Shown piece by piece: positions 14,933 to 54,997 of a stretch of 54,997 bases of DNA. Both the position numbers and the translations under genes were made by a program. The notes under the pieces are model-generated. The model made no database searches. It saw only the letters and a list, made by a program, of their open reading frames with translations, and was not told the DNA's origin. The stretch spans positions 1 through 54,997 of the forward strand of contig PLYM01000241.1 in assembly GCA_003153375.1 (NCBI GenBank), given 5' to 3'. Numbering within the stretch: the stretch's first letter is position 1; the number at the start of each line of letters is the position of its first letter. The stretch is from Planctomycetaceae bacterium. GTDB taxonomy: Bacteria > Planctomycetota > Planctomycetia > Pirellulales > PALSA-1355.

Positions 14933-15080
14933 GTACTCCTCGCGCCACGACTCGGCAAGCGTGGCGAGACAGCGCATGGTCCACGCTTGCTGCGCAGCCG
15001 CATGTTTGGCGACCGCGCCGACTCGTCGGCCACGAACCGAATGCAATCCCCAGTAAACTCCCCAGAAAGGAACGACAGGT

Positions 15081-44196: not shown

Positions 44197-44604
44197 ATGA
44201 AGCACCGTCCTGCGGTCCAGGCCGAGGGCGGCCCTGCCACGGCTACAAGCCGGCGGAAAATGCCACGTGATTTTGAAACGTGCGCAGCCCAACTCACGGC
44301 ATTGGGAGACCCCTGCCGGCTCTGTATCGTCGCCTGCCTCTTTAGAGGGCCGAAAAATGTTTCCGAACTTGCCGCTCTGACTGAAACCCACATTGCCAAG
44401 GTCTCCCATCATCTGCGCGTGCTCCGCGAGGCAGATTTAGTGCTGTCCGAAAAGCACGGCAGATATGTGGTTTATTCGCTTCATCCCGAAGTTGTCGCCA
44501 GCGGGACGGCGATAGGTGAGCCGAACGTAATCAACTTGGGGCTGGCACGCCTATCGCTGTACCAGTCGACAGTATTGCCTCCGGTCCGGTCACCACAGTT
44601 TTGA
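44197..44604 (+). CDS. ArsR-family winged-helix transcription regulator
   Basis: A 135-residue protein with an ArsR/SmtB winged helix: CAAQLTALGDPCRLCIVACLF, the recognition helix in ETHIAKVSHHLRVLREADLV, and the wing EKHGRYVVYSLHPEVV. There is no typical CxC metal site in the recognition helix region, although Cys residues lie near the N-terminus (DPCRLC). ATG 44197 is used; the internal ATG at 44260 would also give a full domain. It stands between the divergent HAF genes and PEP-CTERM remnants and may control the HAF operon, which is inference. Confidence 0.85.
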   Translation: MKHRPAVQAEGGPATATSRRKMPRDFETCAAQLTALGDPCRLCIVACLFRGPKNVSELAALTETHIAKVSHHLRVLREADLVLSEKHGRYVVYSLHPEVVASGTAIGEPNVINLGLARLSLYQSTVLPPVRSPQF

Positions 44605-44642
44605 GATCGTCGAGCAGCTTCCCCGGTCGTAATCGACAAGGT

Positions 44643-44713
44643 CCCTCGACCTGGGCGCTACTGGCGATGGGGGCCGGTGCGTTGCTCTTGGGTCGACGGC
44701 GGCGGGGATCGTG
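44643..44713 (+). pseudogene. PEP-CTERM tail remnant
   Basis: The frame reads PSTWALLAMGAGALLLGRRR and ends at TGA 44711-44713. This is a textbook PEP-CTERM end (PEP-like start, hydrophobic helix, Arg cluster), but the frame upstream encodes no HAF repeat or signal peptide, so it looks like the remainder of a deleted exported-protein gene. Confidence 0.55.
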
Positions 44714-44788
44714 ATCGGGACTCGAAGCGAGGTTGCTGTACAATCGAGCTGTGCGCCAAGTCATTTCACTCGGCAGGAGGCTTTTGTT

Positions 44789-45256
44789 ATGAAACAGCGA
44801 ACCGTCTTCAATGTGGGCCTTGGGGGCCTATTTGGCTTGAGCTTGGCTGTTGCAATTATGGCATCGGCAGGCCCGCCGTCTCAAAAAGGCTATTCACGCG
44901 ATATACCTCCCGACGCAAAACCTCAGAACGATTTACCTGCCTTGCTTCGGCCCGCCCAGACTAAGTCATCACGTGAAGCGGCCCGGATACTACGCGCCGA
45001 CTTGTCGGACGCGGCCAACATGGCGATCGCTGAAGCGGATGCCGCCGAATTGGAATACCGAAACGCAATCGACACGAACAAAAAGCAGCCCGGCAGTATT
45101 CCAGAAGCCGAAGTCGAGCGACTGCACCGAGTTCATTCTGACCGACTCCTCGGGGCAACCAGCAAGCAAGTTAAATTCCTGCAAGCCGAGGTCAACTACC
45201 TTGGTGACGAGGTATTGGACTTGAGGACGGTCAAGGTCCGCCCCGTGAAGAACTAG
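44789..45256 (+). CDS. Exported helical protein (155 aa)
   Basis: A 155-residue protein with a signal peptide at about residues 1-27 (GLFGLSLAVAIMASAG) and a mature part rich in Glu, Ala and Lys that should be helical (REAARILRADLSDAANMAIAEADAAELEYRNAI). No domain is recognised. CAGGAGG lies 8 bp before ATG 44789, and TACAAT at 44737-44742 is a probable -10 box. This is one of the few genes in the right half with both a proper leader and a ribosome-binding site. A periplasmic role is likely. Confidence 0.75.
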   Translation: MKQRTVFNVGLGGLFGLSLAVAIMASAGPPSQKGYSRDIPPDAKPQNDLPALLRPAQTKSSREAARILRADLSDAANMAIAEADAAELEYRNAIDTNKKQPGSIPEAEVERLHRVHSDRLLGATSKQVKFLQAEVNYLGDEVLDLRTVKVRPVKN

Positions 45257-45318
45257 GCGTCGAACGTTCATCCTGGCCGCCGCCCCAGCTCACGCTTCTC
45301 ACGCTCCGCGAACGCAGG

Positions 45319-45372
45319 CCGACCTGGGCGATGGGGGCCGGTACGCTGCTCTTTCGTCGCCGACGGCGGTGA
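45319..45372 (+). pseudogene. Second PEP-CTERM tail remnant
   Basis: The frame reads PTWAMGAGTLLFRRRRR and stops at TGA 45370-45372. It is the same type of sequence as 44643-44713, with related DNA (GCGATGGGGGCCGGT in both), and is directly followed by an LPEPIR-tail copy. Confidence 0.5.
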
Positions 45373-45384
45373 TCGGGTGCTGCC

Positions 45385-45435
45385 TGGTCCACGCTGCCCG
45401 AGCCCATTCGCAAGGCGGAGAAGTCCGGCGACTGA
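45385..45435 (+). repeat. LPEPIR-tail copy (WSTLPEPIRKAEKSGD)
   Basis: A degenerate copy of the tail motif in an open frame ending at TGA 45433-45435, 13 bp after the PEP-CTERM remnant. There is no start codon near it. The C-terminal part (KAEKSGD) differs from the other copies. Confidence 0.45.
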
Positions 45436-45504
45436 CTCACGGGCCGTTGGTACAATTCCGGGATCGCACGTCTTGGTCTAATCGCGATCGCAGGAGGTCT
45501 ACCA

Positions 45505-46065
45505 ATGAGCAACTGCATCTCTCGTCGCCTGAGATGGTTTCTGCTGTTTGGTGCGATAGTCTTGATGGCTGGGGTTCTACTGACATGCATTGCAGAATTG
45601 CGGAATTCAGAATGGATTGCTGAATTCGCTGGCAAGCCGGAATCGTATCTCGTAGAGGAAGGCAATTACGAACGTTGGTCGTCGCTGGTACAACCCAGCA
45701 TCGTGCTTTTGCGATGGGCCCTGGATGTGCTCATTCCGTTCGGTGCCGGCATGGTACTTTCGGCTATCGGCGCGCTCGTCTGGGTCTCAAGGGGTCGGTT
45801 CAGTTTACGGACGTTGATGATTGGCATGGCTTACTTGAGCCTTCTCATTGGCATACCCTTTGGCATTGTGCGGCCACGGTTGCAAAATCCGCAGATCGTG
45901 TATCGCCCAGCGATTGGCGACGTTTTTTTCGAGCAGCATTTGGAATCATCAAGGTCTGGCGCATCGTTGATAAACGGTGGGAAAGTTCCCATTGCTGCGG
46001 CCCCTCTGCTCGTTTTGCCATTCATCCTTTTCTGGCCCAAACGAAATCCCGGCGAGCCAGAATAA
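45505..46065 (+). CDS. Membrane protein with SLRTL segment (186 aa)
   Basis: A 186-residue inner-membrane protein: a first hydrophobic helix (FLLFGAIVLMAGVLLTC), a periplasmic loop, then two helices around RFSLRTLMIGMAYLSLLIG, and a final helix APLLVLPFILFW before WPKRNPGEPE. The SRGRFSLRTLMIG stretch matches the N-terminal module of the small proteins further right, but here it lies inside the protein. AGGAGG is at 45491-45496, with TACAAT (45453-45458) upstream. The next gene starts at the base after the TAA. Confidence 0.72.
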   Translation: MSNCISRRLRWFLLFGAIVLMAGVLLTCIAELRNSEWIAEFAGKPESYLVEEGNYERWSSLVQPSIVLLRWALDVLIPFGAGMVLSAIGALVWVSRGRFSLRTLMIGMAYLSLLIGIPFGIVRPRLQNPQIVYRPAIGDVFFEQHLESSRSGASLINGGKVPIAAAPLLVLPFILFWPKRNPGEPE

Positions 46066-46749
46066 ATGTGCGGCCGATTCACGCTCCGCCCCCACCCTCG
46101 CGAGTTTGCCGAAATTTTCGCCGTCGTCCGTGGGCTTGAACAGGAATGGCAACCCGCGTACAACATCGCCCCGACTCAGAACGTCGTGTGCGTGCGTGAC
46201 CGTGATGAGCGGGAGTTATTCAAGGCCCGATGGGGCCTGATCCCGAGTTGGGCCAAAAATGCCACGATCGGCTCCTCGTGCATTAACGCCCGCGTCGAGA
46301 CGGTCGACACCAAGCCCGCCTTTCGTTCAGCATTCAAGAAGCGACGATGCCTGGTTGTGGCCGACGGCTATTACGAGTGGCGACCTGCGGACAAACAGCC
46401 GTTCTACATAAGCTTGAAGTCCGGCGAGCCGATGGCCTTCGCCGGTTTGTGGGAATTCTGGAAGTCGCCGCTCGGTCCAGTGGAGAGTTGCACCATCTGC
46501 ACCACGGACGCGAACGACACGATGGGCCAACTGCATGATCGGATGCCGATCATCCTGCCAACGCATTCCATTGATCATTGGCTCGACCTTTCGGTCAGCG
46601 ATCCCGAGGAACTGAAGCCGATGCTGCATGCGTTGCAAGGCGTTGAGTTGCAAACGTGGCCAGTCGGGAAAGCCGTGGGCAACGTTCGCAACCAAGGTCC
46701 GAAGTTGATCGAACCGATCGACGCTGCTGAAGACTTGAGCTTCGGCTAG
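46066..46749 (+). CDS. SRAP-domain protein (HMCES/YedK family)
   Basis: A 227-residue SOS-response-associated peptidase-domain protein. After Met removal, Cys 2 in MCGRFTL forms a covalent thiazolidine link with abasic sites in single-stranded DNA. NIAPTQ, WGLIPSW, INARVET, the catalytic Glu in GYYEWR, and the His in LHDRMPIIL are all present, so it should be active. It protects abasic sites from cleavage. The ATG follows directly on the TAA of the membrane-protein gene, so the two are coupled. Confidence 0.95.
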   Translation: MCGRFTLRPHPREFAEIFAVVRGLEQEWQPAYNIAPTQNVVCVRDRDERELFKARWGLIPSWAKNATIGSSCINARVETVDTKPAFRSAFKKRRCLVVADGYYEWRPADKQPFYISLKSGEPMAFAGLWEFWKSPLGPVESCTICTTDANDTMGQLHDRMPIILPTHSIDHWLDLSVSDPEELKPMLHALQGVELQTWPVGKAVGNVRNQGPKLIEPIDAAEDLSFG

Positions 46750-46771
46750 CGAATCGGTACTCCAATGGGCA

Positions 46772-46777
46772 TATAAT
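46772..46777 (+). promoter_or_regulatory. -10 box 10 bp before an ATG
   Basis: TATAAT in ATATAATGGGCC. The matching element TATAATGGGCC at 49025-49035 lies 6 bp before its ATG. No ribosome-binding site is present in either. Confidence 0.5.
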
Positions 46778-46787
46778 GGGCCTACCC

Positions 46788-47066
46788 ATGAGCGAAGGCC
46801 CCGCCAAACGCCGCTGGTTCCAATTCACCATTGCCCGATGCCTCTTGGCTACGTTCTGGTTCTCGGTCACCTGCGCGGCTTGGCCCTTCGATGATGCGAG
46901 TTGGCTACTTCAGTGGGTGGCACTGCGTTGGGGATTGCTGATCGTGCCTCCGTTTATCGCCTTTGGTACGTTGTTTGGTCGCGCTAGAATTGCCGCGCTG
47001 ATCGGCATGGTGTGCTATTTTGGCTGGCTTGCTTTCGTGGCATATGAGTTCACGTATGGTTGGTGA
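46788..47066 (+). CDS. Small membrane protein with module-like N-terminus (92 aa)
   Basis: A 92-residue protein. AKRRWFQFTIARCLLATFWF is a diverged form of the KRRWFRFSLRTLFVVV module, followed by a second pair of hydrophobic stretches (LRWGLLIVPPFIAFGTLF and AALIGMVCYFGWLAF). It is probably an integral membrane protein with three helices. ATG 46788 is preferred because ATG 46776 lies inside the TATAAT -10 box. No ribosome-binding site is visible. The function is unknown. Confidence 0.65.
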   Translation: MSEGPAKRRWFQFTIARCLLATFWFSVTCAAWPFDDASWLLQWVALRWGLLIVPPFIAFGTLFGRARIAALIGMVCYFGWLAFVAYEFTYGW

Positions 47067-47077
47067 ATTTCGGGATT

Positions 47078-47158
47078 TCTGATTTCAGACTGATCCACTT
47101 CCGAACGCCCTGGGAATTTCGATGATCAGCCGCCCCCTTGTACAATGGCGTCCATGAG
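47078..47158 (+). repeat. 81-bp promoter block, copy A
   Basis: An ungapped match of 69/81 bp to 49257-49337. It holds the CACTNC-type junction motif (47083-47104), TACAAT (47141-47146) and the ATG (47154) of the next gene. The genes on either side of the two copies encode unrelated proteins. Confidence 0.7.
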
Positions 47159-47651
47159 CGACGAAATAAAAGAACCGCCCCAACCGCACCAGTTTTCCGT
47201 TGCCACACTATTGGCGTATGTAGCTGTTGCGGCAACCGTGATCTTTGGTGTTTTGGGGCGAGGCGAAGTCGTCGTAGGAATTCTATCCGGGGGCGTTGTC
47301 GCCGGGATTGTGACCCTGGTAGCTGTCAAGACAGCGATGTTTCGCAGCGTCGCTGAGTTATCGCGGGCGGCGTTTCTCGTCACGATTGGCAGTCTTGTGA
47401 TTGCGCCGCTGCTGTTCGCAATTGCGATGGCCATGGCCATGCCCATGGGCAACCAGTCTGGAAGCGTTCCAGATTATCTAGCAGCAATCGCATTACTGCT
47501 TGCAGGTATCTCCATTGTTGCAAACCTCGTTGCCTGGATAACCGGCGTCCGCGCGAGGCGCGCCGAGGGGCGAACCTGCGCTTGGATTTATGTCGATGCC
47601 ATTCTGTTTTTGATCACGGTGTGGTGGCTGGGCATGTTGTTGAGCATGTGA
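47154..47651 (+). CDS. Four-helix membrane protein (165 aa), leaderless
   Basis: A 165-residue protein with an N-terminal HQFSVATLLAYVAVAATVIFG module-like segment and about four hydrophobic helices (VVVGILSGGVVAGIVTLVAV; AFLVTIGSLVIAPLLFAIAM; AAIALLLAGISIVANLVAW; YVDAILFLITVWWLGMLL). ATG 47154 is used because ATG 47145 is part of the -10 box TACAAT (47141-47146); 7 bp separate the box from the ATG and no ribosome-binding site exists. A SLRTLFVVV-type gene follows after 42 bp. The function is unknown. Confidence 0.68.
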   Translation: MSDEIKEPPQPHQFSVATLLAYVAVAATVIFGVLGRGEVVVGILSGGVVAGIVTLVAVKTAMFRSVAELSRAAFLVTIGSLVIAPLLFAIAMAMAMPMGNQSGSVPDYLAAIALLLAGISIVANLVAWITGVRARRAEGRTCAWIYVDAILFLITVWWLGMLLSM

Positions 47652-47678
47652 GATTGTCCGTGACCGTCCCTAAACGCC

Positions 47679-47725
47679 GCGCCCCTTAACCGAGTGCCAT
47701 TCACCCCTAAACGCCGCTGGTTCCG
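47679..47725 (+). repeat. 47-bp start-region repeat, copy A
   Basis: Matches 49931-49977 at 46 of 47 positions. It covers the GTG start and first codons (VPFTPKRRWFR) of the module gene at 47694. The second copy leads into a truncated module. Confidence 0.7.
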
Positions 47726-48179
47726 CTTCTCGCTGCGGACGCTGTTCGTCGTGGTGACGGTGTTTGGGGTTTGGTTGGGGTGGAACTTGGACATTGTGCG
47801 GCAGCGAGCGCACATCCGAGACCGTATAAACGCGAGCTGCGCGGACGTGGTCCCCCCAAAGGGCTTCGGGAATTGCGGGATCGAGGAAAACGGTCCAATC
47901 CAGCCGCGTTCAGGCATCGTCTCGTATGCCATATATACGAGGGCGATAGTTCCACCCAATCTTGACATGCCGTCGAATCCGAACCCCCCGCTAGCCTTGA
48001 GGCTGCTTGGCGCCGAACCAACGGCATTGATTGATCTATCGGAGGACGATTTCAGCGAGGCAGAAGCCGAGCACATAAAGCGGCTTTTTCCTGAAGCGAA
48101 AGTCGTTTACTTGACGCGTGCCGCAATGCGCGCAGAAAGGCACGCGTTATTCCATCCGCCCCGAGAACCACGCGAGTAA
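47694..48179 (+). CDS. SLRTLFVVV-module protein (161 aa)
   Basis: A 161-residue protein. The N-terminal module KRRWFRFSLRTLFVVVTVFG forms a basic region and one transmembrane helix that ends VWLGW. The remainder, probably outside or inside the membrane, has no known domain but ends with LIDLSEDDFSEAEAEHIKRL followed by FPEA, which resembles the end of the protein at 49482. The start is GTG 47694; the preceding bases lack a ribosome-binding site and the codons VPF may not be translated. Its DNA module is nearly identical to that of 49482, indicating recent duplication. Confidence 0.7.
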   Translation: MPFTPKRRWFRFSLRTLFVVVTVFGVWLGWNLDIVRQRAHIRDRINASCADVVPPKGFGNCGIEENGPIQPRSGIVSYAIYTRAIVPPNLDMPSNPNPPLALRLLGAEPTALIDLSEDDFSEAEAEHIKRLFPEAKVVYLTRAAMRAERHALFHPPREPRE

Positions 48180-48205
48180 GAAACTCCCCTCCTCGCCCCC
48201 TCCGG

Positions 48206-48211
48206 TAGAAT
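48206..48211 (+). promoter_or_regulatory. -10 box 8 bp before an ATG
   Basis: TAGAAT in GGTAGAATCAGAGGCC, with 8 bp to the ATG at 48220. The similar GGTAGAATCAGGGC at 48385 precedes the next gene. Confidence 0.5.
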
Positions 48212-48219
48212 CAGAGGCC

Positions 48220-48357
48220 ATGAACGACATCGTCACCGAACTCATCTCGGAGGCTCGCCAAGTGCCCTTCTGGCGATGGGCGGTGCTGGCCGTGGTTTTG
48301 TCCGGACTAGCGATCGTGTTAGTCGGACTGTTCGGTTCCATTCGGCGCCGCGACTGA
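48220..48357 (+). CDS. Single-helix membrane micro-protein (45 aa)
   Basis: A 45-residue protein with an amphipathic charged N-terminus (MNDIVTELISEARQ), one hydrophobic helix FWRWAVLAVVLSGLAIVLVG and a basic end IRRRD. ATG 48220 is used although the frame is open further upstream, because TAGAAT lies 8 bp before it and the upstream translation is unlike a protein start. There is no ribosome-binding site. The type resembles small membrane toxins or regulators, but nothing identifies a function. Confidence 0.55.
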   Translation: MNDIVTELISEARQVPFWRWAVLAVVLSGLAIVLVGLFGSIRRRD

Positions 48358-48386
48358 TCCCTAGCCGTCTTTCCATGGCACGCTGG

Positions 48387-48392
48387 TAGAAT
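48387..48392 (+). promoter_or_regulatory. -10 box 6 bp before an ATG
   Basis: TAGAAT in GGTAGAATCAGGGC, with exactly 6 bp to the ATG at 48399. Confidence 0.55.
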
Positions 48393-48398
48393 CAGGGC

Positions 48399-48584
48399 AT
48401 GAGCGAGCTTAGCCCAATAGAACGCGAAGTCCTCCAACGCAAATTGGCGGCAGTGAAGGCCAGCATGAAGGAAATGCCCGGAGTCACTTCCCTGGACATT
48501 GAAGAATTGTCCGCGCGATACGATCGGCTTAATGCCAAGCGCGTAGCCATCGAAAAGCAGCTTGAGGAGAAGGGTGGCAGCTAG
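48399..48584 (+). CDS. Coiled-coil micro-protein (61 aa), leaderless
   Basis: A 61-residue, highly charged protein that should form a helical hairpin or coiled coil (EREVLQRKLAAVKASMKEM, then IEELSARYDRLNAKRVAIEK). No membrane segment. TAGAAT lies 6 bp before the ATG and there is no ribosome-binding site. The type resembles the coiled-coil proteins at 52331 and 52623 on the other strand. No function can be assigned. Confidence 0.6.
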   Translation: MSELSPIEREVLQRKLAAVKASMKEMPGVTSLDIEELSARYDRLNAKRVAIEKQLEEKGGS

Positions 48585-48628
48585 CCGTTTTTTCCCCGAT
48601 GCGAAGCCCCATCCGGCCAGCAACAACT

Positions 48629-48645
48629 TAATGACACACTACCCG
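48629..48645 (+). repeat. CACTACC junction motif
   Basis: TAATGACACACTACCCGA-type element between two small genes. Related copies occur at 47083, 49262, 51366, 51692 and 52095; this is one of the more diverged ones. Confidence 0.4.
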
Positions 48646-48684
48646 AAAACCGGATAGCGTCGAACCGCCCGCAGGCTGGCTTCA

Positions 48685-48720
48685 GGGTTGCTATCCCGAT
48701 CGGTTATGATGGGGGGATGG
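48685..48720 (+). repeat. 36-bp promoter block, copy A
   Basis: Matches 51717-51752 at 34 of 36 positions. It contains TATGAT (48705-48710) followed by 6 G and the ATG at 48717. The downstream proteins are unrelated. Confidence 0.7.
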
Positions 48721-48956
48721 GATTCCCGAAACGGCATATCATCATCGGCACACTTTGGTCGCTCGCAGCCTTGGCGACGTTCGCACTGGCCGCGTGGTGT
48801 AATTCGATGATCCCGCCCGTCACTAAGGCCAACCGATCGCCACCGCAGCCGTATTATGACTCGGCCATAATCGTGCTTGGAATCGCTTCCGCCGTTGCTG
48901 GCTTCGCTGAAGTGGCAGCGGCCGCTAAAGCATTTGCTGGCGGCCCAAATCATTGA
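48717..48956 (+). CDS. Two-helix membrane protein (79 aa), leaderless
   Basis: A 79-residue protein: a basic start MGFPKRH, a helix IIIGTLWSLAALATFALAAW, a short loop, and a second hydrophobic helix SAIIVLGIASAVAGFAEVAA. TATGAT ends 6 bp before the ATG; the six intervening bases are all G, which might also act as a weak ribosome-binding site if transcription starts upstream. The function is unknown. Confidence 0.6.
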   Translation: MGFPKRHIIIGTLWSLAALATFALAAWCNSMIPPVTKANRSPPQPYYDSAIIVLGIASAVAGFAEVAAAAKAFAGGPNH

Positions 48957-49024
48957 TCCACGGCATATTCAAACTGGCCTACCACACGTCAAAGCTGACG
49001 TGATGCAAGACAGCCCTCCCGCTC

Positions 49025-49030
49025 TATAAT
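49025..49030 (+). promoter_or_regulatory. -10 box 6 bp before an ATG
   Basis: A perfect TATAAT followed by GGGCCT and the ATG at 49037. Confidence 0.6.
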
Positions 49031-49036
49031 GGGCCT

Positions 49037-49261
49037 ATGAGCGAAGTCCCGAGACGCAGGCGCGCCGAAGTTCCGTGGTTAGTCCTGGGTGCATTAATCG
49101 GCATCGCTGCATTAATGGGATCGACACCGTGGCGCATCGGCGCGACCCAGAAGGCGGATACAGTTGGGTTGCTTTTACAGATTCTGGCCTATGCTGGTGG
49201 CGGATCGCTCGGTGGCCTGTTGGTAGGCGCGATTCTCAATCGCCTTTTTCCGAAAATCTGA
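49037..49261 (+). CDS. Two-helix membrane protein (74 aa), leaderless
   Basis: A 74-residue protein with basic start MSEVPRRRRAE, a first helix WLVLGALIGIAALMG, and a second LLQILAYAGGGSLGGLLVGA ending NRLFPKI. TATAAT lies 6 bp before the ATG. No ribosome-binding site. Its start context (TATAATGGGCC then ATGAGCGA) matches that of the gene at 46788 although the proteins differ after the first residues, again a shared promoter with a different protein. Confidence 0.62.
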   Translation: MSEVPRRRRAEVPWLVLGALIGIAALMGSTPWRIGATQKADTVGLLLQILAYAGGGSLGGLLVGAILNRLFPKI

Positions 49262-49337
49262 TTTCAAACTGACGCACTACTGAACGTCCTGAGAAATTCG
49301 GCGATCAGCCGCCCCCTGGTACAATGGCGCCCATGAG
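49257..49337 (+). repeat. 81-bp promoter block, copy B
   Basis: The counterpart of 47078-47158. It carries TTTCAAACTGACGCACTAC, TACAAT (49320-49325) and the ATG at 49333 in the same positions. Confidence 0.7.
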
Positions 49338-49485
49338 CCCGCCGATCCTCTATTTTGATTCTGGGAATGTGGCCATTCTCTGGAGCGGCTATCTGTTCTA
49401 CGTCCACTGGACCACGCTCGCAGCCGCAGCCATCTTGATGGCGATCGCAGTCGGCTTGGTGAATGTCTTAGCGCGCAAACCATGA
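49333..49485 (+). CDS. Small membrane protein (50 aa), leaderless
   Basis: A 50-residue protein of which about residues 12-47 are hydrophobic (VAILWSGYLFYVHWTTLAAA, then AILMAIAVGLVNVL), so one long or two short membrane helices. TACAAT lies 7 bp before the ATG. Its TGA overlaps the ATG of the SLRTLFVVV-module gene (ATGA at 49482-49485), so the two are translated together. The same order, membrane protein then module gene, occurs at 47154-48179. Confidence 0.6.
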   Translation: MSPPILYFDSGNVAILWSGYLFYVHWTTLAAAAILMAIAVGLVNVLARKP

Positions 49486-49832
49486 CAGCCCCTAAACGCC
49501 GCAGGTTTCGCTTCTCCCTGCGGACGTTGTTTGTGGTGGTGACGGTGTTTGGGGTTTGGTTGGGCTGGACTCTGCATCATATCCATCTTCGAAGACAAGC
49601 TATTTCCGAGATCGAGGCTCACGGCGGCGACGTTGTATATGGCGTCGACTTATCCGCAACATACCCGGAAGTACCGCCATCCGACTTTCCCAGCATTCCG
49701 TTTTGGAGGGTCTGGTTGGGCGATAAGGCAGTCGCCCAATTGGAGATGCCCGATGAGCACTACGCCGAGAAACACGACGTATTGGATGTGCTGTTCCCGG
49801 AACGTACGATCGGCACGGTGACGTGGCGCTGA
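49482..49832 (+). CDS. SLRTLFVVV-module protein (116 aa)
   Basis: A 116-residue protein. The N-terminal module is KRRRFRFSLRTLFVVVTVFG, ending VWLGW, that is a basic stretch plus one membrane helix. The remaining about 85 residues contain a Pro-rich segment and end QLEMPDEHYAEKHDVLDVLF, similar in layout to the end of the 47694 protein. Expression depends on the overlapping 50-residue gene. The domain outside the module has no known relative. Confidence 0.7.
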   Translation: MTAPKRRRFRFSLRTLFVVVTVFGVWLGWTLHHIHLRRQAISEIEAHGGDVVYGVDLSATYPEVPPSDFPSIPFWRVWLGDKAVAQLEMPDEHYAEKHDVLDVLFPERTIGTVTWR

Positions 49833-49930
49833 GCGGGCCGTTCGCCGCTAGGCCGATCCTGGGCCAGTCGGCCAGCAACACACCAGGCACCCAGTACCCA
49901 TTTTTGCTTTTATCGCTCAGTGGTTTCGGG

Positions 49931-50014
49931 GCGCCCCTTAACCGAGTGCCATTCGCCCCTAAACGCCGCTGGTTCCGATTCAGCCTACGGACATTGTTCG
50001 TGGTGGTGCGATAA
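49931..50014 (+). pseudogene. Truncated SLRTLFVVV module
   Basis: The first 47 bp match the start region of 47694. A frame from GTG 49946 reads VPFAPKRRWFRFSLRTLFVV and stops at TAA 50012-50014 just after the core. The TAA overlaps the ATG of the next gene by one base (TAATG). It is either a broken module or a leader peptide. Confidence 0.55.
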
Positions 50015-50526
50015 TGTGTGCCCAGTTTCCAAATATCGATATTGTTGCGGTTCTATTTGATGGGGCCAATCTGTTGATACTGATGTGCGCCGTTGCGAGT
50101 GCGTTCATAGGTGCTCGCGGCCACCGCCCCCATACCTTAAAACGGTTGCGTACCGCGATCCTTGTCGTCGCCTACGGCAGCGTATGGGTAGCTATCTGCT
50201 TTTACGTGTATTTGTTTGTTCCCGATCTCCGATCCGGACTCGCCCTGCTTGGTGCACTGGCATTTGTGGCGACGGGATGTGCAATACCGACACGTCTTTC
50301 GTTCCCCATCGTTGCGGCCGTGTTGACGGGCGCCACGATTCTGTTGATGCAGGGGGCGCAATTGAAGCTCTTTGTCGATGGCAGCGCCCAGTATCGGTAC
50401 GAAGGAGTACCGCCCGTGTGGGCGCTCCATTGCACAATGCTTGTCGCGCTGATAGCTAGTTACGCAAGAGAACGAGAATCGCGAGGAACCGATCGGATGT
50501 TTGCGCGCCGCCATACAATCGAATGA
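50014..50526 (+). CDS. Membrane protein (170 aa)
   Basis: A 170-residue integral membrane protein with about five hydrophobic helices (LLILMCAVASAFIG; TAILVVAYGSVWVAICFYVY; SGLALLGALAFVATGCAI; FPIVAAVLTGATILLM; ALHCTMLVALIASYA) and a basic C-terminus. It has no own ribosome-binding site; the ATG overlaps the stop of the truncated module. Its TGA overlaps the next module gene (ATGA at 50523-50526). The function is unknown. Confidence 0.65.
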   Translation: MCAQFPNIDIVAVLFDGANLLILMCAVASAFIGARGHRPHTLKRLRTAILVVAYGSVWVAICFYVYLFVPDLRSGLALLGALAFVATGCAIPTRLSFPIVAAVLTGATILLMQGAQLKLFVDGSAQYRYEGVPPVWALHCTMLVALIASYARERESRGTDRMFARRHTIE

Positions 50527-50900
50527 CCGCCAAGCCGAAACACTTCTGGCCGCGATTTACACTGCGCACGTTGTTCGTCGTGGTGGGCACACTGGCGATT
50601 CCACTTGCGTGGCTCGCGTCAGAGGCATCATATGCCCGGCAGCGATTGCGAGAGCGCGATCGCCTCTGCGAGTTAGGGGGCAGCATCAATCGAAATGGAG
50701 AATCCCTCCATATTTGGCCTAAGTGGCGATTGCGTCTGCACCTCCTTTATGATGATTCTGAAATAAGTAGCCTCCACGTACCCGAGGGGACTGATCAAGC
50801 CGAAATCGAGCGCTTGGGCGGCTATTTCCGGAGGCTGGAATTTGGATGGGAAGTGATAGCCAGGGCCGATTTGTTTGGCCACTGGATACGTGGTGAGTGA
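50523..50900 (+). CDS. SLRTLFVVV-module protein, diverged (125 aa)
   Basis: A 125-residue protein whose N-terminus KHFWPRFTLRTLFVVVGTLA is a diverged module with one membrane helix. The following domain (ERDRLCELGGSINRNGESLH, then WPKWRLRLHLLYDDSEISSL and HVPEGTDQAEIERLGGYFRR) has the look of the short repeats that follow this module in planctomycete proteins, with an I/L-rich strand and a helix. It is coupled to the upstream membrane protein. No function is known. Confidence 0.65.
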   Translation: MTAKPKHFWPRFTLRTLFVVVGTLAIPLAWLASEASYARQRLRERDRLCELGGSINRNGESLHIWPKWRLRLHLLYDDSEISSLHVPEGTDQAEIERLGGYFRRLEFGWEVIARADLFGHWIRGE

Positions 50901-51029
50901 CCAACTCACCCCACTAAACCGCCCCAGAAATCAACACACTAATCACACACGGCCTACGAACCCAAATCAACGGGTCCTTTCCCTGACTCGCACAGGCGCG
51001 TGCTTGGGCCCTCCACAGGGATGATCGGC

Positions 51030-51152
51030 TCACAGCAGCGACGACGGCCCGCTCAGGATGAGGCGGAGGGCAGAGCCCAACGGTCGCGAATCACCCGCAC
51101 TCCGCGCAGCGTTGACGTTGGGGTCCGGATTGTGCTGGTGGTCGCGGGTCAT
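51030..51152 (-). CDS. Truncated short ORF (40 aa), DPNVNAAR type
   Basis: A 40-residue ORF whose ATG (51152) overlaps the TGA of the zinc-ribbon gene (ATGA). The N-terminus MTRDHQHNPDPNVNAAR looks like the start of small conserved proteins, but the rest (SGDSRPL-like, Leu/Ser-rich) does not, so a frameshift or truncation is likely. The 50901-51029 stretch next to it shows nothing else. Confidence 0.35.
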   Translation of the reverse strand: MTRDHQHNPDPNVNAARSAGDSRPLGSALRLILSGPSSLL

Positions 51153-51328
51153 GGTTTGGAGAAAGTGAAAGTTAGGTTGCAGCGACGGCAGTAATGCTGT
51201 CGCCCCCGGGGCTTGAGCGGCAAGCAGCAGTAGGGGCACGGGCGCGGCGATTCCTTCCCGGCGGCTTTGTCCCCGCGACACGCCTGCTCCCAAACCACCT
51301 TGTTAAACTCTCGCTCCAATACGTCCAT
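51149..51328 (-). CDS. Zinc-ribbon micro-protein (59 aa), leaderless
   Basis: A 59-residue protein. An N-terminal helix (MDVLEREFNKVVWEQACRG) is followed by a four-Cys zinc ribbon: CPYC at 31-34 and CRRC at 47-50, the last part CNLTFTFSK. It may bind nucleic acid. The start at 51328 is supported by TACAAT (51340-51335) 6 bp upstream; a longer frame exists but would start inside the divergent promoter region. It shares that region with the gene at 51402. Confidence 0.65.
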   Translation of the reverse strand: MDVLEREFNKVVWEQACRGDKAAGKESPRPCPYCCLPLKPRGRQHYCRRCNLTFTFSKP

Positions 51329-51334
51329 GCCCTG

Positions 51335-51340
51335 ATTGTA
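51335..51340 (-). promoter_or_regulatory. -10 box 6 bp before an ATG (minus strand)
   Basis: TACAAT on the minus strand with TCAGGG and then the ATG at 51328. It is divergent from the TATACT at 51390, with 49 bp between the two. Confidence 0.55.
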
Positions 51341-51365
51341 CCGCGCCGCCCGGTGCCCGTCCTGC

Positions 51366-51384
51366 CTCAAAGTGAACCACCCGA
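51366..51384 (+). repeat. CACTACC junction motif
   Basis: CTCAAAGTGAACCACCCGA, between the divergent genes; related to 51692 and 52095. Confidence 0.45.
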
Positions 51385-51389
51385 GCGGC

Positions 51390-51395
51390 TATACT
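51390..51395 (+). promoter_or_regulatory. -10 box 6 bp before an ATG
   Basis: TATACT followed by GGGGCC and the ATG at 51402. Confidence 0.55.
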
Positions 51396-51401
51396 GGGGC
51401 C

Positions 51402-51698
51402 ATGCGTATCCTAGATACCTTGGCGTTCTACGTTTTCGCAGCCATCCTTTTGATTGTGGCCTTCCACCGAATCCTGATCTGGTCCGGCGCAGCGAACGAA
51501 AGCCGCCTCAAATTCCCATGGCTGATTATTGGGGCGCTCACGGGTTTCCTTGTCGGTGTCTTTTTCACGCCAGCACAAGCGATGGCCGGAGTGCCGATGC
51601 GCTACGCTGCGCGAGTCATCGGCGGGGCGATTGCCGGAGTCTTGATTGGCGCCATCATCGAGGCGCGAACCTGTCAGAAAGTCTCAAATCGAGAGTGA
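51402..51698 (+). CDS. Membrane protein (98 aa), leaderless
   Basis: A 98-residue protein with three hydrophobic helices (TLAFYVFAAILLIVAFHRIL; FPWLIIGALTGFLVGVFF; YAARVIGGAIAGVLIGAII). The Gly/Ala-rich helices suggest close packing or oligomerisation. ATG 51402 is set by TATACT 6 bp upstream; the longer open frame in front runs through the divergent promoter. No ribosome-binding site. The function is unknown. Confidence 0.62.
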   Translation: MRILDTLAFYVFAAILLIVAFHRILIWSGAANESRLKFPWLIIGALTGFLVGVFFTPAQAMAGVPMRYAARVIGGAIAGVLIGAIIEARTCQKVSNRE

Positions 51699-51709
51699 AC
51701 CACTACCGA
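51692..51709 (+). repeat. CACTACC junction motif
   Basis: AGAGTGAACCACTACCGA, overlapping the 3' end of the previous gene. Confidence 0.45.
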
Positions 51710-51716
51710 AGATCGT

Positions 51717-51752
51717 GGGTTGCAATCCCGATCGGTTATGATGGGGGAATGG
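51717..51752 (+). repeat. 36-bp promoter block, copy B
   Basis: Matches 48685-48720 at 34 of 36 positions. TATGAT is at 51737-51742 and the ATG at 51749 (6 bp gap). Confidence 0.7.
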
Positions 51753-52072
51753 ATGCCAGCGAAATCACTACCATCATCGAATCTGAAATCGCAGGCGATT
51801 GGACTCGATCGAACTACCACGGCGTTGATCTGCGTGAATGCCTGGTCCCGCCCAGGAAGTGCACCTTCTGCAACGGTTTTCCGCAGCTCAACGAAGGCAA
51901 GCCGGTTGAACTTTGGATCGTCCTGGAAGAACTACCGGGCGAAAAGGAAGGTTACCTGATCGTATGCGATGATTCAGGCACACAATTCGGCCTTGCTGAT
52001 TGGAATGGCAGTAATCCGCCTGTCCTGCTTGGGTTCCACGGCACATTTCTTGATGCCCTAGCTGCGATGTGA
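51749..52072 (+). CDS. Soluble hypothetical protein (107 aa), leaderless
   Basis: A 107-residue protein without membrane segments. It contains CTFCNGF near residues 38-44 (possible metal site) and a well-formed beta pattern LWIVLEELPGEKEGYLIVCD, then FGLADWNGSNPPVLLGFHG and the C-terminal helix FLDALAAM. No known family. TATGAT ends 6 bp before the ATG in a block nearly identical to that at 48685. This shows the shared promoter is not restricted to membrane proteins. Confidence 0.62.
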   Translation: MDASEITTIIESEIAGDWTRSNYHGVDLRECLVPPRKCTFCNGFPQLNEGKPVELWIVLEELPGEKEGYLIVCDDSGTQFGLADWNGSNPPVLLGFHGTFLDALAAM

Positions 52073-52094
52073 GCGGCCAGGATAGGAACTCCGA

Positions 52095-52116
52095 TTTCAA
52101 AGTGAACCACTACCCA
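52095..52116 (+). repeat. CACTACC junction motif
   Basis: TTTCAAAGTGAACCACTACC. This copy is followed by no plus-strand gene, so it may mark a lost cassette. Confidence 0.45.
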
Positions 52117-52158
52117 TAATCGTGGAAATTTGACGACAGTCCCTGCTCTAATAAAGCG

Positions 52159-52191
52159 AGCCGGCCAACTGTTGGAACCACTCAGCCGGCT
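52159..52191 (-). terminator. Possible terminator of the minus-strand small-gene operon
   Basis: AGCCGGC (52159-52165) and GCCGGCT (52185-52191) form a perfect 7-bp stem. Read on the minus strand it is followed by GCTTTATT. It lies 140 bp after the operon end, and the loop is long (19 bp), so it is only a candidate. Confidence 0.4.
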
Positions 52192-52330
52192 CTGCCCAAT
52201 CGCACCCTGGGTGAGAGGGCACTATGGCCTCGGCCAATTCTACGCGAACGCATTAGCCGCACGGCAGCGACCCAAGGTTTGCTCTGCCGGCATCAGGTTG
52301 GGCGGATGGAGAAGTGAAGGTCCTCCGGCA

Positions 52331-52498
52331 TCAGGAATCTCCAAGCCGTCGGCGCAGTACTTCCTGCTGCTGATAGAGGTCGAGCCATTGGTCGATACTC
52401 TCCATCTCCAAAGCTTCGAGCGGCGGTCGCAACTCGGCCATGCGGGCCTGCAACTGGTCAATGCGTAGCTCGATTGCTTTTCGAGTTTCAGACGGCAT
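52331..52498 (-). CDS. Coiled-coil micro-protein (55 aa)
   Basis: A 55-residue, charged, helical protein (MPSETRKAIELRIDQLQARM, then a Leu-rich heptad region and DLYQQQEVLRRRLGD), likely a helical hairpin or coiled coil. The ATG is 5 bp after the stop of the 40-residue gene, so it belongs to a three-gene minus-strand operon. No ribosome-binding site is clear. The type resembles small regulators that bind a protein partner. No family is recognised. Confidence 0.55.
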   Translation of the reverse strand: MPSETRKAIELRIDQLQARMAELRPPLEALEMESIDQWLDLYQQQEVLRRRLGDS

Positions 52499-52503
52499 TT
52501 CGC

Positions 52504-52626
52504 TTATGAGTCCGCCCGCTCGGCATGGTCAACAGGGCACGGCTGCACGGTGTAACTAATGGCAGCTTGCGAGCCACCAATCCTCACGACGTCCTGGACT
52601 TCGACCGTGCGGGTTTCGTACCTCAT
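52504..52626 (-). CDS. Small protein (40 aa) in a coupled operon
   Basis: A 40-residue protein, MRYETRTVEVQDVVRIGGSQ, then AAISYTVQPC and DHAERADS. Beta-strand composition, not membrane. The ATG overlaps the stop of the upstream gene (ATGA at 52626-52623). Upstream in-frame codons overlap that gene. Its role is unknown. Confidence 0.5.
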   Translation of the reverse strand: MRYETRTVEVQDVVRIGGSQAAISYTVQPCPVDHAERADS

Positions 52627-52811
52627 GGTTTTGTGGCCGCGTTGCCATCCTCCAGCTTTTTGCGCAAGTCCGTGAGTTCGCCGAGGATTTTCATCCATTG
52701 ATCGAAAAGCTCGGGTCTAGCAAGCCACTCTTCTGGCCGCTTATTTAACTTCGCGTTAAGTTCTTCGATTCGTCGCTCGGCCGATGCGCGCTCGTGCGGG
52801 TCTAGAACCAT
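52623..52811 (-). CDS. Coiled-coil micro-protein (62 aa)
   Basis: A 62-residue charged helical protein: HERASAERRIEELNAKLNKR, then a segment PEEWLARPELFDQWMKILGE and LTDLRKKLED. It is the first gene of the minus-strand trio and its stop overlaps the next start. No membrane segment, ribosome-binding site or clear -10 box is seen. It resembles in style the 55-residue gene at 52331 (LDLYQ/EELN-type helices) and the 48399 protein, and these could be distant relatives. Confidence 0.55.
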   Translation of the reverse strand: MVLDPHERASAERRIEELNAKLNKRPEEWLARPELFDQWMKILGELTDLRKKLEDGNAATKP

Positions 52812-52900
52812 GGCATGCTCTCTTGCCTGTGAAATCGGAAAGGGATTCCGCCTCTCCCCTGTCCGGTTTCATGGTTGAGCATTTTAGCAGCGCCGTGGGG

Positions 52901-53089
52901 CTAACCGCGCTGGACGATTCCCGCCTGGCGTAGCGCCTCATCCCAAGCCGCTGCCTGAGTCGGTGCCCGAACTACGATCTTGTCGTCGTTCCGATTGCCA
53001 CACCGCCGCTTCTCCGCGCGTCCGGTGGCACATCTCGCCAAACGACCAGCCGAACAGTTTGTGGGCGCGGTCGATGGGGTTGCTTTCAC
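52901..53089 (-). CDS. Small ORF coupled to the 175-aa gene
   Basis: A 62-residue ORF starting at an ATG that overlaps the TGA of the upstream gene (ATGA). The C-terminal half NDDKIVVRAPTQAAAWDEAL looks protein-like, but the N-terminal half is Ala/Arg/Cys-rich. In the alternative frame the same region reads IDRAHKLFGWSFGEMC, which looks more protein-like. A frameshift near 53000 would join the two halves. It is either a broken gene or a wrong frame, so confidence is low. Confidence 0.35.
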   Translation of the reverse strand: MKATPSTAPTNCSAGRLARCATGRAEKRRCGNRNDDKIVVRAPTQAAAWDEALRQAGIVQRG

Positions 53090-53613
53090 TTCTTCTTCCG
53101 CTTCTTCGGCAACTTGTGTTGCGGCTGGGCCATTCCCTCTGATGCCGCGCGGTCGACGTCCGCCGCGTCCCGCTTTCCCTTGGGCCTTGGTGGCTTAGTC
53201 CTCTTCTTCGGCTCTGGCTCGGCCTCTTCATCGAACACAAGGAAGGGCTCGTGCTCATAAGACTCTGCCGCCTCGATGTCATCTTCGGGGTCAGGTCCCT
53301 GCCCAAACATCCGACAAAACTCGCTTTCGTTGTGCGGCAATGAGGCATACATCGTGACGGGTTCTGCGCCCATGCTGAGTGACGCCTTTGTCACAACTCC
53401 CTCGGGCGGAATCTTTTCAAGCTCGATCAAGTGGTCGAGCCAAACGTCCTTCGCGCCATAGGTCAGCGAGTGGTGGCGGGTAAGAATTTGTTCTGCCATT
53501 GCTTCGGCAGCTTCATCCGCGTCCTCGGCTTCAAGCAATAGCGTAAATTCACCGTGATGCGGCCCAAGGCCCGGACGCTCGCACTCGAATCGGAAATGGC
53601 CGACGTAAAGCAT
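53086..53613 (-). CDS. Hypothetical acidic/basic protein (175 aa)
   Basis: A 175-residue protein. The first 85 residues form an alpha/beta domain (MLYVGHFRFECERPGLGPHH, GEFTLLLEAEDADEAAEAMA, with a helix and strand pattern). The centre is acidic (DPEDDIEAAESYEHEPFLVF) and the end Lys-rich (KLPKKRKKK), which suggests nucleic-acid or polyanion binding. The ATG at 53613 is used; the longer upstream frame is Arg-rich. No known domain is recognised. It lies 80 bp after the SLRT-module gene. Confidence 0.68.
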   Translation of the reverse strand: MLYVGHFRFECERPGLGPHHGEFTLLLEAEDADEAAEAMAEQILTRHHSLTYGAKDVWLDHLIELEKIPPEGVVTKASLSMGAEPVTMYASLPHNESEFCRMFGQGPDPEDDIEAAESYEHEPFLVFDEEAEPEPKKRTKPPRPKGKRDAADVDRAASEGMAQPQHKLPKKRKKK

Positions 53614-53693
53614 GGACGCGACTCCGTAGTTGTGGTTGCGGCTACACGTCCCGTCGAAGAAAAGCCGGGCGATCCCGTATCGGCGACGTTGCT

Positions 53694-53975
53694 CTATCCC
53701 TCGGCCTTTTGGTTCTCGGCAAAGCGCCGCCTCACGACGTAAAACCACAACAGGCCCAGTGCGGCTTCGACGGTTGCGATGTAAATGAATCGCTCGGTCG
53801 GAAAGTAGACATAATGCGTTTCGTATCGGCCGGAGTTAATGCCCTGGACGAGAACCTCGTGACCGAGACGCTCCGTGAAGGGATACTGCGACATCAGCGC
53901 GCAGAATGCGAAAATCAGAATCAACATGGTCCGCAGACTGTAGGTGAACCGGCGGCGTTTGGAGGCAGCGTTCAC
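53694..53975 (-). CDS. SLRT-module protein, diverged (93 aa)
   Basis: A 93-residue protein whose N-terminus KRRRFTYSLRTMLILIFAF is a diverged form of the SLRTLFVVV module: basic stretch, then one membrane helix. A second helix, IATVEAALGLLWFYVVRR, lies near the C-terminus, so both ends may be cytoplasmic. The GTG start at 53975 has no clear ribosome-binding site or -10 box. This shows the module also on the minus strand. Confidence 0.65.
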   Translation of the reverse strand: MNAASKRRRFTYSLRTMLILIFAFCALMSQYPFTERLGHEVLVQGINSGRYETHYVYFPTERFIYIATVEAALGLLWFYVVRRRFAENQKAEG

Positions 53976-54024
53976 GATGGGCCAATTCCGTTCAGTTGAA
54001 GTGTTCCTGGAATTGAGATTGAAC

Positions 54025-54450
54025 TCAGTCTAATCGCGAATCTTGAGGTACAGGCGGACTCGTTCGGCGGCTCCAAATTTGACGGCAAATCACGTAAGTG
54101 GTCACCGATAAAGCAAAAACTGCGGCTGCGAGAGCTACCAGAGGTATAGGGGCCTGCGAAAACGATTTCCAGCCGAAGCGATATGCGTCATAGCCAAGAC
54201 CGACGACCAAGAACCCAAGAAAGCCGATCCATGCCCCAAGCCTCGCGAATCCAAATGGTCGGAGAATGCCAGCCCCTACCAAAGGCCCCGCCGCGAGGAT
54301 TTGCACCAATGCCATGAGGGCGCGCCACCAAGTTACTCTACCGACAGTCTCCAGGGTTTCCATCGTTGAGCGACCGGCAAGGTAACAGCCAATACCTGCT
54401 CCGATGAGGGAGGTCGCAAGCAGAAGCGACTTTAGTGAGATTTGGAGCAA
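54025..54450 (-). CDS. Membrane protein with SLKSLL start (141 aa)
   Basis: A 141-residue integral membrane protein with four helices (SLKSLLLATSLIGAGIGCYL; ALMALVQILAAGPLVGAGIL; LGAWIGFLGFLVVGLGY; PLVALAAAVFALSVTTYVIC). The N-terminal MLQISLKSLLLATSLIG resembles the SLRTLL module. TTG 54450 is the start, with GAAGG 8 bp upstream. It is the last gene before the edge region. No function can be assigned. Confidence 0.65.
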   Translation of the reverse strand: MLQISLKSLLLATSLIGAGIGCYLAGRSTMETLETVGRVTWWRALMALVQILAAGPLVGAGILRPFGFARLGAWIGFLGFLVVGLGYDAYRFGWKSFSQAPIPLVALAAAVFALSVTTYVICRQIWSRRTSPPVPQDSRLD

Positions 54451-54648
54451 TCGTGGCCTTCACTCACGCCAAGATACGGACACACTTTGGCGAACAAGTT
54501 AAAGTAATGAGCGTCCGGCTCATCACCTCATTCTATCAACGCCCCGCACCCACGGCTCCACAGCTTGCGTGCCGTTCGTCCGGGCAGCGTTGGTGACGGT
54601 GAGTTACGATCGTGGGGCGTCACGGCTGAAGCCAGATCCTCGCCCGCC

Positions 54649-54699
54649 ACGCCCTCACTCCCTGAGCCCATTCGTCGCGCCATGCTGGCCCTGGTCGGA
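54649..54699 (+). repeat. LPEPIR-tail copy (PSLPEPIRRAMLALVG)
   Basis: The fourth copy of the tail motif, in a frame that continues beyond the motif, so it has no natural stop here and is a fragment. Its closest relative is 40452-40565 (LPEPIRRAMLAL identical). Confidence 0.45.
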
Positions 54700-54750
54700 T
54701 GTTGGGGTGATTCGCTTGCTGGTACCGCCAAATTGGTGGCCGATGGCTGC

Positions 54751-54996
54751 CTATGGCGGAAACGGACCTATTCGTGGGTCTTGGGCAAATAGGTCGCTTT
54801 CGTCGAATGATATCTTTAGGAGGTCTCCGCATTCTTTGGGACTCAAAAGACGACTGTACAACAGGACGCCCGTAACGTTGACAAACGCTTCAGAGTCCTG
54901 ATGGGATTGGGGAGGATTGAATTCACGCGCATCAATCCAGCCGAAGTCGCAATTTACTGCCGGATCATTTTCTTGGGTCCCTAGCGGAATCTGTGG
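54751..54996 (-). CDS. Hypothetical protein, C-terminal part (start outside window)
   Basis: The minus-strand frame is open from the right edge to TAG at 54753-54751, giving 81 codons with no start in the window. The translation looks like a real soluble protein: CDFGWIDAREFNPPQ, EAFVNVTGVLLYSRLLSPKE, and CGDLLKISFDES. No known domain is recognised. The stop leaves only 52 bp before the LPEPIR copy. Confidence 0.55.
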   Translation of the reverse strand, partial: PQIPLGTQENDPAVNCDFGWIDAREFNPPQSHQDSEAFVNVTGVLLYSRLLSPKECGDLLKISFDESDLFAQDPRIGPFPP

Positions 54997-54997
54997 G

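Follow-up and report, generated by a model that had tools for sequence, protein, structure and literature searches.

Features of the locus

The window analysed here is the whole 54,997-nt stretch of a planctomycete draft genome (6.7 Mb in 291 contigs, 96.37 % complete, 4.18 % estimated contamination). It contains an array of small open reading frames (ORFs), in which intergenic spacers of five classes (A to E) precede the start codons. The features of the array are as follows.

47075..47153, +, putative class E promoter, first copy (TACAAT, 7 nt, ATG at 47154)
48192..48219, +, putative class C promoter (TAGAAT, 8 nt, ATG at 48220)
48220..48357, +, 45-aa ORF after class C
48360..48398, +, putative class D promoter (TAGAAT, 6 nt, ATG at 48399)
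48399..48584, +, 61-aa ORF after class D
48613..48716, +, putative class A promoter spacer, full-length copy (copy 1; 92 % over 114 bp to contig C71, 91 % over 106 bp to C85:2176)
48705..48710, +, -10-like hexamer TATGAT, 6 nt 5' of ATG (from sequence)
48717..48956, +, 79-aa ORF, two hydrophobic segments (hydropathy; homologues on C85, 91 %, and C210, 50 %)
48966..49036, +, putative class B promoter (TATAAT, 6 nt, ATG at 49037)
49037..49261, +, 74-aa ORF after class B
49254..49332, +, putative class E promoter, second copy (TACAAT, 7 nt, ATG at 49333)
51402..51698, +, 98-aa ORF, TATACT 6 nt 5' of ATG, outside classes A-E
51717..51748, +, putative class A promoter, short copy (copy 2; match to copy 1 and ATCCCGATCGGTTATGATGGGG search)
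51737..51742, +, -10-like hexamer TATGAT, 6 nt 5' of ATG (from sequence)
51749..52072, +, 107-aa ORF without hydrophobic segment (hydropathy; homologues at 41 % and 37 %)

Class A copies in the genome

An earlier note on this DNA had described a 36-bp promoter block present twice, and direct comparison of 48685-48720 with 51717-51752 confirmed its count of 34 agreeing positions out of 36. Both 36-mers contain TATGAT and the start ATG (at 48717 and 51749) with a gap of 6 nt between them, and the block is indeed distinct from an 81-bp block at 47704/49489. Its length and its copy number had both been underestimated. The 36 bp form the 3'-terminal part of an intergenic spacer of about 105 bp at 48613-48716, here called class A, and the similarity of copy 1 to other copies reaches upstream to about 48613 (nhmmer E 6e-37, with this copy itself among the three seeds).

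In the genome-wide search that the earlier note had proposed, the 22-mer ATCCCGATCGGTTATGATGGGG gave eight matches at up to three mismatches (three exact, one with one mismatch, two with two and two with three), and the same 22-mer read backwards gave none, so the recurrence of class A is not due to chance. In all eight copies a -10-like box is followed, after 6-8 nt, by the start codon of an ORF of 67-107 aa; many copies in non-promoter DNA, which the note had named as the sign of random occurrence, were not seen among these matches. The anatomy of all eight copies supports a putative promoter block before unrelated genes, and at least four further modules of this kind exist. Within the window pair, a weak gapped match continues beyond the ATG (83 % over 65 bp, to 48747/51779), and 14 of 30 ungapped positions are identical in codons 2-11.

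Five spacer classes before unrelated ORFs

The eight class A ORFs fall into seven unrelated groups by BLAST, including one related pair, and the four further spacer classes, B-E, behave in the same way. Among 137 same-class pairs examined, 78 share at least 80 % identity in the 30 nt before the ATG, and in 75 of these 78, across the five classes, BLAST found no protein similarity at E 1e-3, a test of weak power for small membrane proteins, so that remote homology may be hidden in some of the "unrelated" pairs. One class B pair reached E 1.6e-4, and several same-class pairs lay at E 0.01-0.1. The proteins of the remaining three pairs are 90-97 % identical with dN/dS of about 0.07-0.35 (dN 0.047 and dS 0.186 for the 48717 ORF pair), which makes fast divergence of the ORFs unlikely; these three pairs are under purifying selection, as measured on few substitutions.

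The notable point, absent from the earlier note, is the boundary at the start codon. Over the 30 nt that end with the -10 box, 27 non-homologous class A pairs have a mean identity of 0.84, which falls after the ATG to 0.32 in codons 2-3, 0.25 in codons 4-5 and 0.28 in codons 6-11. In classes B-E the average likewise steps down toward chance past the start codon. All these averages exclude the three homologous pairs and, in class B, the 5 weaker matches among its 13 members. Copies of one spacer thus stand before unrelated ORFs and lose their identity at the ATG. The A-B-C-D order of the spacers is largely kept between contigs (C38, C71, C85 and C253) and is cyclic.

The -10 box and its spacing

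Across the 52 ORFs listed, 51 have a hexamer-to-ATG gap of 6-8 nt when gaps of 5-9 nt are scanned. The interval 46001-52200 holds nine -10/ATG pairs at 6-8 nt before ORFs of at least 40 aa, against a mean of 0.10 and a maximum of 2 in 300 shuffles, a comparison that was not blind, the hexamer list having been picked after the array was viewed; positions 1-46000 hold one pair of the same kind. No TTGACA-type -35 box was found, and a consensus promoter scan lists neither window copy (2 promoter-like sites against a shuffle mean of 2.5, no excess). The -10-like hexamer lies where it would stand for a leaderless mRNA, and from its sequence the block is predicted to act as a promoter with leaderless initiation. 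Three copies whose gap is 7 nt have an in-frame ATG within TATGATG, which could be their true start.

Products and relatives of the ORFs

Hydropathy bore out the earlier description of the two products, with hydrophobic segments at residues 7-28 and 48-70 of the 79-aa protein at 48717 and none in the 107-aa soluble protein at 51749. Homologues of the former were found only in its own genome among 57 genomes searched. Two further families of the order, represented by genomes G036 and G017, have homologues of the latter (41 % and 37 %), and neither genome has a match to the class A core; the 51749 gene is therefore probably a later arrival at the class A promoter, and upstream of both homologues no block is visible. 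A longer in-frame open frame (51194-52072, 292 aa) contains copy 2 and ends with the 107-aa ORF, and the protein made at this locus may be longer than 107 aa; the open frame of the G036 homologue, 121 aa, is too short for the 292-aa extent. Pfam gave nothing above cut-off for 10 ORFs and NCBIfam nothing for 6 proteins, a SRAP-like protein scoring 101.8 bits against a cut-off of 349.

Distribution beyond the genome

The core pattern occurs in 3 of 396 genomes of the order, its own included, and the match in the third genome, with two mismatches, may be chance. In an 84,980-species collection the exact pattern was found in one stretch, the G037 locus, the records of the window genome being possibly excluded there, and the class A pattern is absent from 56 relatives at up to one mismatch. 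A phage origin was rejected after 48600-49060 found no match in a phage collection and neither the core pattern nor relatives of the 51749 protein were found in viral contigs. Known RNA families gave two matches up to E 1 in 44000-54997, both below gathering scores, and none at gathering score in the whole window.

Group II introns at start codons

Four of the five group II intron 5' ends found (on C85, C172, C33 and C249) sit directly after the series -10 box, 6-7 nt, ATG. The evidence for C249 is a 21-base match at the edge of its contig (E 1.2). The exception, on C266, is the sole copy with both ends and lacks the 5' ATG. Two of the 5' ends stand behind class B- and class D-like promoters, and both 3' ends seen lead straight into an ATG. 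At C71:2331-2359 a 3'-end piece of the intron separates a TAGAAT box from an ATG, where the reading frame that follows has 18 codons only.

Interpretation and alternative explanations

The 36-bp block probably forms the 3' part of a promoter module that is reused, is anchored at the start codon and recurs in arrays of small genes. Its sigma-70-type -10 box (TATGAT) would set the start of transcription at or next to the ATG, and the gene behind it would be read as a leaderless mRNA for which a ribosome-binding site of its own is unnecessary. Class A and at least four other modules (B-E) would have spread by duplication and recombination within arrays of small, mostly membrane-protein genes, unrelated ORFs coming to sit directly behind the copies, and ORFs would have been replaced by recombination. 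This suggests that the bacterium reuses ready-made switches on taking up new genes. If true, it is a simple route to expression, in which the ATG of a new ORF lands behind a ready-made leaderless promoter, and the route is testable because one genome holds several modules and many unrelated ORFs behind them.

Plain tandem or segmental duplication of an A-B-C-D unit, in which the ORFs decayed or diverged while selection kept the promoters and no promoter moved, is unlikely though conceivable. It agrees with the cyclic spacer order on the four contigs, with a SRAP-like gene beside two arrays at 85 % DNA identity and with the few weakly similar same-class proteins. It does not account well for the 75 of 78 pairs without protein similarity while the other three are nearly identical and under purifying selection, nor for a 51749 gene whose relatives in two other families belong to genomes without the core.

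It is also conceivable, though quite improbable, that a lineage of group II introns homes to the promoter-ORF joint. Its members would insert immediately 3' of the ATG in leaderless promoters, and promoters and ORFs would be exchanged at the start codon when intron copies recombine or are lost. No class A copy precedes any of the five intron 5' ends, and the window has no group II intron at gathering score. Should the placement hold beyond five copies, a promoter plus start codon would be a group II intron target, of which a literature search at the level of titles and the beginnings of abstracts yielded no instance; the nearest precedent found comes from cyanobacteria, where introns sit between two closely spaced start codons of an intron ORF (PMC2882425).

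Returning to the reused module, its conservation could also be that of a regulator site (CCGATCGG) kept by selection before unrelated genes of one regulon, an explanation of very low probability. The core is on average better conserved than the DNA 5' of it (0.84 against 0.40), and one exact copy precedes an ORF in another family. However, the palindrome CCGATCGG is intact in four of nine copies and broken in five, which also weakens the earlier proposal of a regulator bound to ATCCCGATCGG; the other classes share the architecture with different sequences, and matches occur in just 2 of 395 other genomes of the order, one with two mismatches.

That the block is a coding remnant (one frame reads AIPIGYDGGM) and no promoter is hardly credible. 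At the two window copies, 44 and 191 codons 5' of the ATG are open in the frame, and the G037 copy is, by eye, in frame with its ORF; against this, the TATGAT-ATG gap is 6, 7 or 8 nt, the peptide frame is shifted relative to the ORF in four of eight copies, copy 1 has no upstream in-frame start codon, the C264 copy has 3 open codons only, and four other classes of unrelated sequence keep the same -10/ATG spacing. The coding and duplication explanations gain slightly, and the main reading loses slightly, from the long frame that surrounds copy 2 and from the weak similarities in class B.

An integron-like cassette array with the spacers as attC sites, which looks similar in that small orphan ORFs lie on one strand with conserved spacers, has next to no probability and is largely refuted, because no integron integrase exceeds the cut-off in the draft genome (TIGR02249 best 82 bits against 265, where 14 of 14 control genomes also score below and none above), RYYYAAC and GTTRRRY are absent from both strands of all 11 spacers in a motif test rather than a structural attC model (the one pair in 46001-52200, at 51075/51171, lies outside the spacers), and the spacers bear promoter-like boxes in several classes of mostly fixed order. 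Five spacer strands folded as DNA gave z values of -0.26, -1.64, -0.33, -2.10 and -0.75; all lie near shuffles except class B (-2.10, the sole value beyond -2) and the class A bottom strand (-1.64), and a structured spacer was rejected.

Comparison with known systems

The leaderless genes with a Pribnow box just before the start codon in PMC5397173 resemble those of the array in having a -10 box at the start codon and no need of a Shine-Dalgarno sequence, and in the single planctomycete surveyed there SD genes are few and the signature is leaderless or S1; what is described there is a tendency over many genes, whereas here near-identical copies stand before unrelated ORFs. Integron cassette arrays likewise consist of small orphan ORFs in a row on one strand, set apart by conserved spacers, but the present array differs in the promoter-like box of each spacer, the mostly fixed class order and the lack of both an integrase over cut-off and attC core motifs in 11 spacers.

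Putative mobile promoters are near-identical upstream sequences before non-homologous genes in one genome. Such promoters and their propagation were reportedly described by Matus-Garcia, Nijveen and van Passel in NAR 40:10032 in 2012. The likeness is in the near-identical upstream regulatory DNA, which here amounts to eight copies before seven unrelated groups, and to 75 of 78 pairs over five classes. The present case differs in that several classes occur together in same-strand arrays of small genes, and in that the match ends near the start codon with a geometry that implies leaderless mRNA. On the best reading of these sequences, the promoter reuse proposed here would be similar in kind to "putative mobile promoters".

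Promoter-like block and its copies

The 36-bp stretches at 48685-48720 and 51717-51752, which carry the ATGs at 48717 and 51749, agree at 34 of 36 positions and form the 3' end of a spacer designated class A, with the -10-like box TATGAT. The block had been correctly described in the earlier note, and its extent is greater than was given there. The genome-wide search proposed in that note placed a class A 22-mer at 8 sites with up to 3 mismatches in the 6.7-Mb draft (291 contigs): two each in the window (itself contig C38) and on contig C85, and single sites on C71, C92, C253 and C264. The same 22-mer read backwards gave 0 sites in this genome at that tolerance.

Class A copies, by length in common
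48613-48716; C71:8816-8919; C85:2175-2279: ~105 bp of intergenic likeness (three copies)
C85:1053-1109; C253: ~55 bp (two copies)
51717; C92; C264: ~29-35 bp (three copies)

These lengths indicate a variable left end and a right end at, or a few bases from, the start codon. The gaps from TATGAT to ATG over the eight copies are 6, 6, 7, 6, 6, 7, 7 and 8 nt; wherever the gap is 7 nt (three copies), TATGATG includes an in-frame ATG. The downstream ORFs encode 67-107 aa, and homology among them was found only between 48717 and C85:1107, which bears out the claim that the two genes first noticed are unrelated; between the 48717 and 51749 copies a weak match runs beyond the ATG (83% over 65 bp gapped, 14/30 ungapped). 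To the left of one copy, a 26-base stretch (C85:1030-1055) recurs at 25/26 positions in G025, which belongs to a different family (stretch L119:1385-1410).

Of 396 genomes from the order, 3 hold the class A core at up to two mismatches: its own (8), G037 (1, exact) and G376 (1, two mismatches). A collection of 84,980 species yielded one match, at the same locus as the G037 copy, and viral contigs yielded none. The G037 copy precedes a 96-aa ORF whose best match to the 36 array proteins is no better than E 1.5. This sole exact outside copy (stretches L118/L130) adjoins a two-gene pair that by eye resembles a toxin-antitoxin module.

Spacer classes and their order

Four more spacer classes (B to E) precede neighbouring array genes; every class has a distinct sequence and carries a -10-like box. 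Among 36 genes, 137 same-class pairs were compared, and 78 of them share at least 80% identity in the 30 nt upstream of the ATG. Protein similarity is absent at E 1e-3 in 75 of these 78; the remaining three pairs have protein identities of 91%, 90% and 97%. In all five classes, the anchored mean identity steps down at the start codon.

Mean identity anchored at the ATG (five weaker class B members and the three homologous pairs left out)
Class; last 30 nt to -10 box; codons 2-3; codons 4-5; codons 6-11
A; 0.84; 0.32; 0.25; 0.28
B; 0.73; 0.30; 0.30; 0.25
C; 0.82; 0.36; 0.46; 0.26
D; 0.91; 0.50; 0.22; 0.28
E; 0.65; 0.42; 0.20; 0.22

The identity at codons 2-3 is partly fed by ATGAGC as the opening of several ORFs. 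Outside the 78, the class B pair C71:9728 / C148:13136 matches at E 1.6e-4, and several further matches at E 0.002-0.05 occur both inside classes and across them. Some small membrane proteins of the arrays may therefore be distant relatives.

Order of spacer classes along the arrays
C85: A, B, C, D, A, B
Window: E, C, D, A, B, E
C71: 24-bp B match, C, D, A, A fragment, B, C, D, A fragment
C253: A, B
C119 and C41: C then A fragment, with no class D match between (on C119 a D-like stretch is visible there by eye)

The recurrent order indicates duplication of units, tandem or segmental, in which the same spacers enclose different ORFs. Since the three related pairs are near-identical and the others mostly unrelated, replacement of ORFs would fit better than steady divergence; an intermediate case is a C210 protein, 50% identical to the 48717 protein, whose spacer has no class assignment.

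Group II introns

Parts of group II introns were identified with Rfam at both ends of C85. A genome search with the intron 5' end returned sites on C85, C266, C172 and C33, together with one short internal piece (C192); the C249 end was found via class D, its support being 21 intron bases at the contig end, equal to C172.

Intron 5' ends (sequence stretch)
C85:18966 (L017): directly after ATG, -10-like hexamer 6 nt upstream
C172:10422 (L143): directly after ATG, hexamer 6 nt upstream
C33:58 (L144): directly after ATG, hexamer 7 nt upstream
C249:20398 (L105): directly after ATG, hexamer 7 nt upstream
C266:28888 (L142): after ATT

On C85 and on C266, the intron 3' end is immediately followed by ATG. 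A 3'-end fragment at C71:2331-2359 (L016; E 1.4e-4, 29/55 positions), flanked on one side by a TAGAAT box and on the other by an ATG with a frame of 18 codons by eye, is possibly a deletion scar; a second candidate, C71:2970-2989, is not significant (E 1.2). None of the five 5' ends lies directly behind a class A copy, and one 3' end lies ~0.85 kb upstream of the copy at C85:1053. Intron placement at the joint of promoter and ATG may be considered a lead to a possible mechanism.

Coding status of the ORFs

The three homologous ORF pairs gave dN and dS of 0.047 and 0.186, 0.048 and 0.139, and 0.015 and 0.224, from 5 to 18 substitutions per pair. A hydrophobic segment is present in 29 of 36 array products. 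The 48717 protein was found at 3 places, all in its own genome (57 genomes searched, own included), and relatives of the 51749 protein turned up in 2 of 56 other genomes (41% and 37%), where the core gave 0 matches and the block was not visible by eye upstream of the relatives. The 51749 ORF shares its reading frame with a longer one that is open from 51194, which counts against the simple reading; the open frame of the G036 homologue is limited to 121 aa, which would favour a start near 51749.

Other features of the window

The array is flanked by a gene (46066-46749), presumably SRAP/YedK-like, with a match to NCBIfam PRK09951 below the cut-off; an 85% identical copy adjoins the C71 array. 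An 81-bp block forms a separate coding repeat.

47704-47784: 81-bp coding repeat, SLRTLF-like start
49489-49569: same repeat
49956-50036: same repeat
50533-50613: same repeat
8810-8837 / 14911-14938: inverted pair of 28 bases without mismatch, separated by 6 kb

Pieces of the 81-bp block (CCCCTAARCGCCGCTGG) also occur on C119 and C167, fused there to putative class C promoters. The inverted pair contains what is by eye an operator-like palindrome, and has TAGAAT on one strand.

Predicted leaderless geometry

A scan with six -10-like hexamers at gaps of 5-9 nt returned 52 ORFs of at least 25 aa on 14 contigs, some of which may not be genes; the gap is 6 nt in 26, 7 in 18, 8 in 7, 5 in 1 and 9 in 0. 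Within 46001-52200 (gaps 0-30, ORFs of at least 40 aa), 9 of 12 hexamer/ATG pairs lie at 6-8 nt, and shuffles of that region gave 0.10 such pairs on average (maximum 2 in 300), a comparison that is not blind because the hexamers were picked after the arrays had been seen. The first 46 kb of the window hold 4 pairs in all, 1 of them at 6-8 nt. No -35 box was seen at the block copies in a promoter consensus scan. Since a -10 box ends ~6 nt upstream of the transcription start, the mRNA 5' end would fall on the ATG. Judged from sequence, the block most likely represents reuse of a putative promoter in small-gene arrays, with a leaderless design anchored at the start codon. A published survey reports, for the single planctomycete it includes, a small number of SD genes together with a leaderless or S1 signature (PMC5397173).
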